Shown: positions 44,826-47,683 of the stretch, piece after piece | How positions within the stretch are numbered: position 1 is the first letter of the stretch | Layout of the letters: the number at the start of each line of letters is the position of its first letter | Assembly (NCBI GenBank): GCA_902826065.1 | Contig: CADEDM010000012.1 | Span: forward strand, 1-49,654 | DNA: 49,654 nucleotides | Source of the DNA: an uncultured Acidobacteriota bacterium | Lineage (GTDB): Bacteria > Acidobacteriota > Vicinamibacteria > Vicinamibacterales > UBA2999 | Direction: 5' to 3' | Position numbers and translations under genes: made by a program | Notes under the pieces: generated by a model | The model's input: the letters and a program-made list of their open reading frames with translations, nothing else | What the model was told of the DNA's origin: nothing | Databases searched by the model: none

Positions 44826-44852
44826 TCAAGAACCCCGGGCGATGCCCGATTA
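44826..44852 (+). promoter_or_regulatory. FliA (sigma-28)-like promoter of flagellin
   Basis: TCAA (44826-44829), 15 bp, CCCGATTA (44845-44852), against TAAA-N15-GCCGATAA. The predicted start is near 44859, leaving a leader of about 70 nt before ATG 44929. It points away from the sigma-54-like site 18 bp to its left. Confidence 0.68.
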
Positions 44853-44861
44853 CCTCCCCGA

Positions 44862-44923
44862 CGCGAGGAACGCACTCCTCGCGCCAGGCCGGCAGGGACG
44901 CCGGCCCGGACTCACGGAGGAGA
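44862..44923 (+). promoter_or_regulatory. Flagellin leader: two hairpins and GGA motifs, candidate CsrA target
   Basis: Hairpin 1 (44862-44883): CGCGAGGA pairs with TCCTCGCG, loop ACGCAC. Hairpin 2 (44887-44906): GGCCGGC pairs with GCCGGCC, loop AGGGAC. The loop contains ANGGA, the CsrA core, presented in a hairpin loop as in known targets. The Shine-Dalgarno GGAGGAGA (44916-44923) is preceded by AC, making a second ANGGA, 10-12 nt after hairpin 2. A CsrA dimer bridging both would block ribosome access to flagellin mRNA. csrA itself is at 49423-49654. Confidence 0.6.
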
Positions 44924-44928
44924 CTCAG

Positions 44929-45726
44929 ATGGCTTCGTTCTCAGTTGTCAGCAACATCTCGGCGTCCAACGCCCAGGCCAACCTCAACACCACCAACATC
45001 GGACTGCAGAAGGCTCTCGCGCGTCTGTCGAGCGGCTTCCGTATCAACCAGGCCGGTGACGACGCGGCGGGCCTCGCCGTGGCCAACGCCTACCGCTCGG
45101 ACGTCGCGGTCCTCAACCAGGGCATGCGCAACGCCAGCGACGGCCTCTCGACCCTGCAGATCAAGAACGGCGCGCTCGACAACATCAGCACGCTGCTCGA
45201 CCGCATGGCGACCCTGGCGACGCAGTCGGCGTCGGCGGGCTTCACCGGCAGCCGCGCGACCCTGGACCAGGAATTCCAGGACGTCATCTCGGAAATCTCG
45301 CGTGAAGTCGGCGTGGCCGGCCTCGCCACGTCGCAGGGCTTCTCGGTGTTCGTGAGCTCGGGCAGCAACGGCACCGTGGGCGGCACGGTCGGCGCGGCCG
45401 ACACGACCACGCTCGGCGTCGCCGGCCTCAGCGTCGCCTCGGCGGCAGGCGCCTCCGCGGCGGTCACGGCCATCACCGGCGCGGTGGCCACGGTCGGCAC
45501 CGTGGTCGGCAGCGTGGGTTCGATCCAGAACCGCCTGCAGTACGCGATCGGCCTGGCGCAGAGCCAGTCGGTCAACACCCGCGCTGCCGAAAGCCGCATC
45601 CGCGACGCGAACATGGCCGAGGAATCGGCCAACCTCACCCGCTACAACATCATGACGCAGAGCGGCATCGCGGCGTTGGCCCAGGCCAACCAGCAGAGCG
45701 GCGCCGTCCTGTCGCTGCTCCGCTAA
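44929..45726 (+). CDS. fliC: Flagellin
   Basis: The flagellar filament subunit, 265 residues. ATG 44929 has a strong GGAGGAGA ribosome site. N-terminal D0/D1 (1-~140): SVVSNISASNAQANLNTTNI, LSSGFRINQAGDDAAGLAVA, NQGMRNASDGLSTLQIKNGA. C-terminal D1/D0 (~200-265): IQNRLQYAIGLAQSQSVNTR, AESRIRDANMAEESANLTRY, ending QQSGAVLSLLR. The variable surface region is only ~55 residues and unusually rich in Ser, Thr, Gly, Val and Ala, offering many O-glycosylation sites for Maf. It is preceded by a FliA-like promoter and a CsrA-type leader, and closed by a strong terminator. It is the likely acceptor of the glycan made by the opposite-strand genes. Confidence 0.97.
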   Translation: MASFSVVSNISASNAQANLNTTNIGLQKALARLSSGFRINQAGDDAAGLAVANAYRSDVAVLNQGMRNASDGLSTLQIKNGALDNISTLLDRMATLATQSASAGFTGSRATLDQEFQDVISEISREVGVAGLATSQGFSVFVSSGSNGTVGGTVGAADTTTLGVAGLSVASAAGASAAVTAITGAVATVGTVVGSVGSIQNRLQYAIGLAQSQSVNTRAAESRIRDANMAEESANLTRYNIMTQSGIAALAQANQQSGAVLSLLR

Positions 45727-45899: not shown

Positions 45900-47264
45900 G
45901 TGAGTTCCCCAATCACGATGAGCGGTTTCAACAACATCGACTTCAGCCAGATCCTGACGCTCATCATGGCGCAGGAGAGCCAGCCGCTCACGGCGCTGCA
46001 GACGCGCCAGTCGCAGCTGCAGTCGCGCTCCAACACGTTCAATCAGCTCGCCACCAAGCTCAGTGCCCTGCAGACGGCCGCCTCGCGGCTGTCGACCGGC
46101 AGCGACCTCACGGCTTTCGCCGCCACCAGCAGCAACCCCGCCGCGATCACGGCGGATGCCGGTGCGTCGGCCATGCCCGGTCGGTACGACGTCGTCGTCA
46201 ACAGCCTGGCGCGTGCACAGGTCACCGCCTCGGCCACCACGGCGCCCGACGCCGACACGACCGTGGTCGCGTCCGGCGGCACCCTCACGATCAACGGCGT
46301 CACGGTGACGCTGGCCGGCGCGGTCACCCTGCGTCAACTGGCCGACGCCATCAACACCACCAGCAACCCGCCCGCCCGCGCCACCGTGGTGCAGAGCGGG
46401 CCGTCGTCGTACCGCCTGGTCCTGACGGCGCGCGACACCGGCGTCGCCAATGCGTTCACGGTCACCAACAACCTGACCGGCGGCACCGGCGTGTCGTTCA
46501 CCGACACTGACGGCGACGGCACGTCGGGCGACGACGCGGCCGACAACGCCGTGCAGGCCAGCAACGCCTCGCTGACCGTCAACAACATCCCGGTGACGAG
46601 CACGACCAACACGCTGGCCGACGCCGTGCCCGGCGTCTCGCTGAACCTGTTCAAGGCCGATCCGGCCGCCACCGTCACCATCGACGTGGCGACCGACTCG
46701 ACCAAGCTCAAGGAACGCGTCCGCGCGTTCGTCACCCAGTACAACGACCTGGTGAAGTTCGCCGGCGACCAGGCCAAGTCGGCGGCCAGCGGCGACGCCA
46801 CGAGCATCGGCCGCGATCCGCTGCTGCGCGGCGTGCGCGACCAGATGCGCAGCGCCCTCGTCGCCGAGTACGCGACCGGCGGCAGCTACACGACGCTGTC
46901 ACAGGTGGGCATCTCGCTGACGCGCACCGGCTCGCTGGAGTTCGACGACGCCGCGTTCTCGAGTGCGCTCAGCGGCGGCACCGCGCAGATCGAGCGGCTG
47001 TTCGCGGGCACTGCCGGCAGCGGCGTCTTCGCCGCGCTGAAGACCGGCCTCGATCGCTACACCCAGAGCGACGGCCTGCTGAAGGGCGTCACCAAGCAGC
47101 TCACCGACCAGGCCTCGCGCCTCACCGATCAGATTGCCAGCATGCAGGACCGTCTCGCCATCCGGCGCGCCTCCCTGCAGCGCGAGTTCATCGCGGCCGA
47201 TCAGGCCATGACGCAGTTGAAGAGCCAGAGCAGCTCGCTCGCGCAGTTCGGCGCGGCGGTCTAG
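45900..47264 (+). CDS. fliD: Flagellar hook-associated protein 2 (filament cap) FliD
   Basis: The filament cap that folds flagellin at the growing tip, 454 residues. GTG 45900 is preceded by GGAGGAAGGAGG. N-terminal FliD_N: NNIDFSQILTLIMAQESQPL and QTRQSQLQSRSNTFNQLATK. The middle has the hook-associated IN repeat (VTLRQLADAINTTSNPPARA). C-terminal FliD_C: KLKERVRAFVTQYNDLVKFA, TLSQVGISLTRTGSLEFDDA, and the heptad-type end RLTDQIASMQDRLAIRRASL followed by QREFIAADQAMTQLKSQSSS. Length is normal. It is followed 17 bp later by fliS. The order flagellin-fliD-fliS is typical of flagellar clusters. Confidence 0.96.
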   Translation: MSSPITMSGFNNIDFSQILTLIMAQESQPLTALQTRQSQLQSRSNTFNQLATKLSALQTAASRLSTGSDLTAFAATSSNPAAITADAGASAMPGRYDVVVNSLARAQVTASATTAPDADTTVVASGGTLTINGVTVTLAGAVTLRQLADAINTTSNPPARATVVQSGPSSYRLVLTARDTGVANAFTVTNNLTGGTGVSFTDTDGDGTSGDDAADNAVQASNASLTVNNIPVTSTTNTLADAVPGVSLNLFKADPAATVTIDVATDSTKLKERVRAFVTQYNDLVKFAGDQAKSAASGDATSIGRDPLLRGVRDQMRSALVAEYATGGSYTTLSQVGISLTRTGSLEFDDAAFSSALSGGTAQIERLFAGTAGSGVFAALKTGLDRYTQSDGLLKGVTKQLTDQASRLTDQIASMQDRLAIRRASLQREFIAADQAMTQLKSQSSSLAQFGAAV

Positions 47265-47281: not shown

Positions 47282-47683
47282 ATGACGTCGAATCGCATGC
47301 TGTCGACCTACCGCCGCACCGAAGTGCAGTCGCGGACCCCCCTCGAGCTGGTGGTGATGCTGTATGACGGCGGCCTCGCGTCGGTGCACCAGGCCCGCGC
47401 GGCCATGGAGCGCGGCGATGTCCCGACGCGCGCCGTGGCGATCTCGAAGGCCATGGCCATCGTGTCGCAGCTGCAGGGCTCGCTGAACATGGAGGGCGGC
47501 GGCGACATCGCCCGCCAGCTCGACGAGCTCTACACGTGGATCAACGGCCGTCTGCTCGCCGCGACGGTCGAGAACAGCGTCACGCCGCTCGACGAAGTCG
47601 CTCGGGTGCTGGCGAAGCTACGCGAGAGCTGGACGTCGATCGCGTCGGGCGCCAGCGAGCAGCCGGAGCGGGGCGCGGCGTGA
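47282..47683 (+). CDS. fliS: Flagellin export chaperone FliS
   Basis: A 133-residue four-helix chaperone that binds the C-terminus of flagellin in the cytosol and prevents early polymerisation. Typical FliS features: STYRRTEVQSRTPLELVVML with YDGGLASVHQARAAME, AISKAMAIVSQLQGSLNMEG, ARQLDELYTWINGRLLAATV. ATG 47282 has CCGGAG at good spacing. Its TGA overlaps the GTG of the next gene (GTGA), so the two chaperone-like proteins are translated together. Confidence 0.95.
   Translation: MTSNRMLSTYRRTEVQSRTPLELVVMLYDGGLASVHQARAAMERGDVPTRAVAISKAMAIVSQLQGSLNMEGGGDIARQLDELYTWINGRLLAATVENSVTPLDEVARVLAKLRESWTSIASGASEQPERGAA

Follow-up and report, generated by a model that had tools for sequence, protein, structure and literature searches.

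A conserved CsrA-type leader predicted to gate flagellin translation in Acidobacteriota

An uncultured soil bacterium of the phylum Acidobacteriota (order Vicinamibacterales; assembly GCA_902826065.1) carries a short leader with two hairpins directly upstream of its flagellin gene. This raises the question of whether the leader is a target of the RNA-binding protein CsrA, and how flagellin production would then be controlled. We analyzed a stretch of 49,654 nucleotides (contig CADEDM010000012.1; hereafter, the window) together with related genomes. We find that the leader has two ANGGA sites at a conserved spacing, that the hairpin presenting the upstream site covaries among relatives, that csrA and fliW are linked to the flagellar genes, and that the GGA is lost jointly with them. 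Given this conserved two-part docking site, translation is very probably the level at which flagellin production is switched. Our preferred reading, to which we assign a probability of about 0.92, is that CsrA gates flagellin translation through two sites in this leader and that FliW relieves the block. A preliminary description of this DNA had predicted post-transcriptional control of flagellin by CsrA, and comparison among genomes (conservation, covariation, and loss with csrA-fliW) strongly supports that prediction.

The leader lies behind a sigma28-type promoter (Table 1). The pattern T[ACG]AAG-N15-NCGATT is found upstream in 45 of the 46 flagellin leaders of the order, always with a spacer of 15 bases. 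We infer a transcription start at about 44858-44861, and hairpin 1 would therefore sit at the 5' end of the mRNA. Two perfect hairpins (8-bp and 7-bp stems), AGGGAC in the loop of the second, and the sequence of the ribosome site had all been claimed previously, and each is borne out base for base. In dinucleotide shuffles (n = 20,000) of this 69-nt leader, a pair of perfect hairpins of at least 7 bp occurs at a frequency of 5e-5; for an ANGGA hexaloop with a stem of 7 bp or more, the frequency is 2.5e-4. Both hairpins are present in the predicted minimum-energy structure and in the centroid; the global fold energy of the leader is only modestly low (z = -2.0). An Rfam search of the window's leader matched no family at E values up to 1.

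Table 1. Features of the flagellin leader and its flagellar neighborhood. Positions are those of the window unless a contig is given.
Feature	Position	Strand	Sequence or basis
Sigma28-type promoter	44826..44852	+	TCAAG-N15-CCGATTA; pattern common to the order's flagellin leaders
Hairpin 1	44862..44883	+	CGCGAGGA-ACGCAC-TCCTCGCG; 8 bp, loop ACGCAC without GGA; sequence, fold
Hairpin 2	44887..44906	+	GGCCGGC-AGGGAC-GCCGGCC; 7 bp, CsrA-type hexaloop AGGGAC 44894-44899 (ANGGA 44894-44898)
Ribosome binding site	44914..44921	+	ACGGAGGA; second ANGGA 44914-44918, 20 nt from loop GGA
Flagellin gene	44929..45726 (ATG 44929)	+	Pfam Flagellin_N 4.7e-27, Flagellin_C 3.5e-20
fliD	45900..47264	+	Pfam FliD_N, FliD_C
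fliS (flagellin export chaperone)	47282..47683	+	Pfam FliS 4e-36
csrA, 3' part, to contig end	49423..49654	-	Pfam CsrA 1.3e-15
fliW	C320:88-438		Directly upstream of csrA across the C12/C320 overlap

The partner genes adjoin the flagellar genes, near flagellin. The preliminary description placed csrA in the window; this holds for its 3' part, while the remainder lies on contig C320, which shares a 55-base exact overlap with the window end. The joined frame encodes an intact CsrA of 83 amino acids. That description was right in reading the leader as CsrA-type, but it missed fliW beside csrA and the sigma28-type promoter, and it did not recognize that hairpin 1 lies outside the CsrA site. When 162 genomes of the order are tabulated, 34 have both flagellin and csrA, 3 have flagellin alone, 9 have csrA alone, and 116 have neither (Fisher test, P = 3e-23, kinship ignored), and fliW is found in 42 of the 43 genomes with csrA. 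The window's own genome has a second partial flagellar cluster (L165, G000:C102:10000-17539), which runs from flgG-like to flgL-like genes and includes a further fliW truncated at the contig end; duplication would explain this cluster, as would contamination by a close relative's DNA.

The encoded CsrA has F at residue 4. Residue 4 of Escherichia coli CsrA is L and is important for RNA binding. The window protein carries the RNA-binding residue R44, the FliW-contact residues V51 and N55, and the extended C-terminus. All intact CsrA proteins of relatives that were aligned have R44, V or I at residue 51, and N at residue 55; V51 and N55 are the residues required for FliW binding (PMC7829508). 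For the 83-amino-acid CsrA of a sister genome (G001), the best solved-structure match is 5dmb chain D, aligned to residue 73, which is the Geobacillus CsrA structure with the C-terminal extension (PMC7829508).

Conservation was assessed in 46 flagellin leaders of the order and in 80 others from elsewhere in the phylum. Under a strict rule (hexaloop ANGGAN closed by four or more contiguous pairs and lying between 85 and 20 bases upstream of the start), the hairpin is present in 37 of the 46 leaders of the order, versus 0.19 expected from dinucleotide shuffles. A relaxed test, allowing any GGA loop and one mismatch, was dropped as non-discriminating because about 40% of shuffled leaders pass it. 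Among 68 distinct hairpins, 85.5% of stem cells are paired (63.9% in shuffles), each of the seven stem pairs has changed on both sides, and covariation scores 0.521 (0.168 in shuffles). The alignment behind these figures was anchored on ANGGA, not on pairing, and leaves out five rows from outgroups, for the most part poorly paired; the same trend is seen when no outgroup row is omitted. The loop thus keeps A-N-GGA fixed, while the stem varies freely by compensation. The preliminary description had proposed aligning the leaders of relatives for conservation of stems and loop; across the order and much of the phylum, hairpin 2 with its ANGGA loop and the ANGGA ribosome site are kept, with covarying stems.

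The second site is equally constrained. Throughout the 36 distinct aligned leaders, the A and the GGA at the ribosome site are invariant, and N can be A, C, G, or T. As judged from this alignment, the invariant A-N-GGA is the ANGGA signature, which is more than a Shine-Dalgarno sequence. The distance from GGA to GGA is 19-25 nt in all 38 measured leaders. The gap that a CsrA dimer can bridge is 10-63 nt, the optimum lying above 18 nt (PMC7652899), and by this comparison the two sites can be reached by one dimer. Members of the f42 family (L089, L091, L117, L122, L124, and L151) place the ribosome site inside a perfect hairpin, GAATTC-AAGGAG-GAATTC, with C replacing the second A in L151 and L124; this is another way to present the second GGA.

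Hairpin 1 behaves differently. Most relatives have a hairpin of varying sequence in its place. Only hairpin 2 is considered CsrA-type; a further CsrA site in hairpin 1 was rejected, because the loop of hairpin 1 lacks GGA in the window's genus and in most relatives. The simplest guess is that hairpin 1 acts as a 5'-end stabilizer. In two paralogs (L029 and L034), the GGA is found in the first hairpin instead, and the second has lost it; the position of the upstream site can therefore switch between the two hairpins. By inspection, CAC seems frequent in the loops of the 5'-most hairpin: ACGCAC in the window (44870-44875), and TCACATGC, CGTCAC, AATCAC, and CACAC in relatives.

Some genomes have lost csrA and fliW naturally. 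In G078, a member of the same order, flagellin-fliD-fliS, an acetyltransferase gene, and flgL-flgK stand in the usual order, with csrA and fliW missing. G001 has csrA-fliW between the acetyltransferase gene and flgL, where fewer than 100 bases remain in G078, and neither gene was found elsewhere in the G078 genome. Its leader keeps the stem (TCCGGC-AGCGAC-GCCGGG), while the loop now reads AGCGAC, with GGA changed to GCGA, and its ribosome site, TTCAGAGAGGA, has no ANGGA. The family f24 has flagellin, and neither csrA nor fliW was found in any of the flagellated genomes drawn from it. There, the strict hairpin occurs in 0 of 14 leaders and ANGGA at the ribosome site in 5 of 14, counts that are non-independent since f24 is one clade. 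A covariance model search of nine f24 genomes and G078 gave no match. Tabulated by genome, strict hairpin against csrA gives 57/17/7/16 (Fisher test, P = 9e-5), an imperfect association that ignores kinship. Most hairpin-bearing genomes in which csrA was not found have incomplete assemblies: the fliW of G441 sits at the very start of its contig, whose edge may have removed csrA, and the flagellin contig of G075, with a hairpin and no csrA found, has only 5,088 bases. Where csrA-fliW has been lost, the leader element is mutated or missing.

The element also extends well beyond the order. A blind scan for the motif GGCARGGAYGCC-N(5,35)-TCAMGGAGGA across 85,000 GTDB genomes of bacteria and archaea yielded at least 81 matches at no fewer than 80 loci. 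Among the matches listed, a flagellin start lies directly downstream in 66 of 81 by the strict pattern, and in eight more by inspection (66-74 of 81). The phyla among the matches listed include Spirochaetes, Clostridia, Desulfobacterota, Nitrospinota, Omnitrophota, Acidobacteria, and others. The motif is therefore a flagellin-leader signature well beyond Acidobacteriota. Two deltaproteobacterial metagenome genomes (L227 and L251) have it before the same non-flagellin gene, whose product contains MG[MI]L.DYELTAS.LAGGLGGT..; this gene is a possible other CsrA target.

These observations bear on other explanations of the leader. The hairpins might merely stabilize the flagellin mRNA or space the ribosome site, the loop GGA being incidental. 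Such a role fits hairpin 1, which at the inferred 5' end keeps its structure with varying sequence and without GGA. It does not fit hairpin 2, whose loop stays fixed as A-N-GGA despite compensating stem changes, and a pure stabilizer would not be expected to retain its stem and lose its GGA in G078, which has no csrA-fliW. As an account of the whole leader, we consider stabilization or spacing very unlikely. Still less likely is that both GGAs are ribosome-related, with the loop serving as a standby or decoy for the anti-Shine-Dalgarno and the second GGA as a plain ribosome site. The GGAGGA of the second site is indeed a good Shine-Dalgarno by itself, but the loop has ANGGA only and not AGGAGG. 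Moreover, an invariant A two bases before the ribosome-site GGA, with N left free, is a CsrA signature that pairing with the anti-Shine-Dalgarno does not need, and loss of the element tracks loss of csrA-fliW.

Chance or shared ancestry is scarcely credible as the source of the element. Palindromes are common in GC-rich DNA and are inherited among close relatives; this genome is GC-rich, and the relaxed hairpins arise readily in shuffled leaders. Against this, the strict form is found in 37 of 46 leaders where 0.19 would be expected, and covariation at all seven pairs already contradicts both chance and ancestry. The same motif also stands before flagellin in Spirochaetes, Clostridia, Desulfobacterota, and others. 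A two-site CsrA target thus remains by far our preferred reading of the leader.

The range of targets seems narrow. When the window's own genome was searched with the covariance model, the flagellin leader matched at E = 9e-10, and the next match was partial, at E = 0.03. The proposal that several mRNAs of this genome carry the element is unsupported, as the non-flagellin matches are partial or weak (E of at least 0.03). CsrA appears to serve mainly flagellin in the order, because csrA is nearly absent from genomes without flagellin and only the flagellin leader matches the model. This suggests that CsrA may serve flagellin almost alone in these bacteria. Weak partial matches to the hairpin model lie inside the coding regions of csrA (window:49587-49600, minus strand) and of a probable flgM (G000:C320:3197-3210). 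The match inside csrA could be read as CsrA autoregulation, but chance is the likelier reading, since it spans Gly-Lys-Asp-Ala codons.

Several flagellin paralogs in csrA-positive genomes lack the GGA hairpin. In the Luteitalea-like genus g26 (L015, L027, L043, and L050), the first tandem flagellin has a hairpin GAGCC..GGCTC whose loop is without GGA, while the other paralogs have the CsrA hairpin. The leaders of these first flagellins are short, with 43-44 nt from the -10 box to the ATG in the three that have the promoter pattern. In two-flagellin genomes of family f20 (L093, L107, L108, L111, L112, and L114 versus L092, L095, L096, L088, L101, and L094), one copy follows a sigma28-type TAAAG..GTCGA promoter but lacks the GGA hairpin, which the other copy has. 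It is possible, if rather doubtful, that tandem flagellins in these two groups of the phylum are split into CsrA-gated and CsrA-free copies. If so, filament composition would depend on the state of export.

How would the switch operate? For CsrA binding and bridging, for repression, and for its relief by FliW, we extrapolate from Bacillus, Geobacillus, Campylobacter, and E. coli glgC. A CsrA dimer would anchor on the ANGGA hexaloop of hairpin 2 and reach across some 20 nt to the ribosome-site ANGGA, and the bridged protein would keep ribosomes off the flagellin mRNA. FliW, encoded directly upstream of csrA, would bind CsrA via the helix with V51 and N55 and lift the block. Unexported flagellin would hold FliW, and translation would therefore take place only during flagellin export.

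The closest precedent is the FliW-CsrA-Hag partner switch of Bacillus subtilis. As described in PMC7652899, PMC8523840, and PMC7829508, hag likewise has two CsrA sites, one over the Shine-Dalgarno and the other about 20-25 nt upstream, fliW adjoins csrA, and CsrA has an extended C-terminus and N55. The Acidobacteriota locus differs in that csrA-fliW follows flgK-flgL on the strand opposite to flagellin-fliD-fliS, the stem is long and GC-rich, and CsrA has F at residue 4. Campylobacter jejuni flaA shares the sigma28 promoter, a short leader that forms two stem-loops, an upstream loop containing ANGGA, compensatory changes that keep the structure, and the use of CsrA with FliW (PMC4894983). In flaA, however, ANGGA occupies the loops of both stem-loops, whereas in the order studied here the ribosome-site motif is for the most part unpaired and an extra 5' hairpin lacks GGA; f42, another family of the phylum, departs from the order in its ribosome-site hairpin, which is comparable to flaA. 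In E. coli glgC, a high-affinity GGA hairpin just upstream similarly serves as the tether from which a CsrA dimer bridges to the Shine-Dalgarno (PMC7652899), but the gene is another one and CsrA is countered by the CsrB/C RNAs, not by FliW. In other phyla, Clostridioides difficile fliC has predicted CsrA sites BS1 (CAAGGATG) and BS2 at the ribosome site (PMC8523840), and Treponema denticola, whose flaB leader is a further parallel, has csrA-fliW in a flagellar cluster (PMC9481697).

Acidobacteria have been listed among the phyla that possibly use FliW (PMC4682653). This was the only relevant paper in our search for Acidobacteria with CsrA, FliW, or flagellin, and within the limits of the literature searched, we found no description of the flagellin leader. 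Judged by its sequence, the element is the known FliW-CsrA-flagellin switch of Bacillus and Campylobacter, in a phylum for which we found no such description. The G078 genome and the f24 family serve as natural loss experiments that tie the RNA motif to CsrA-FliW. Our results thus place a predicted flagellin homeostasis switch, together with its cis-acting RNA site, in the Acidobacteriota, a large phylum of soil bacteria for which genetic tools are few.
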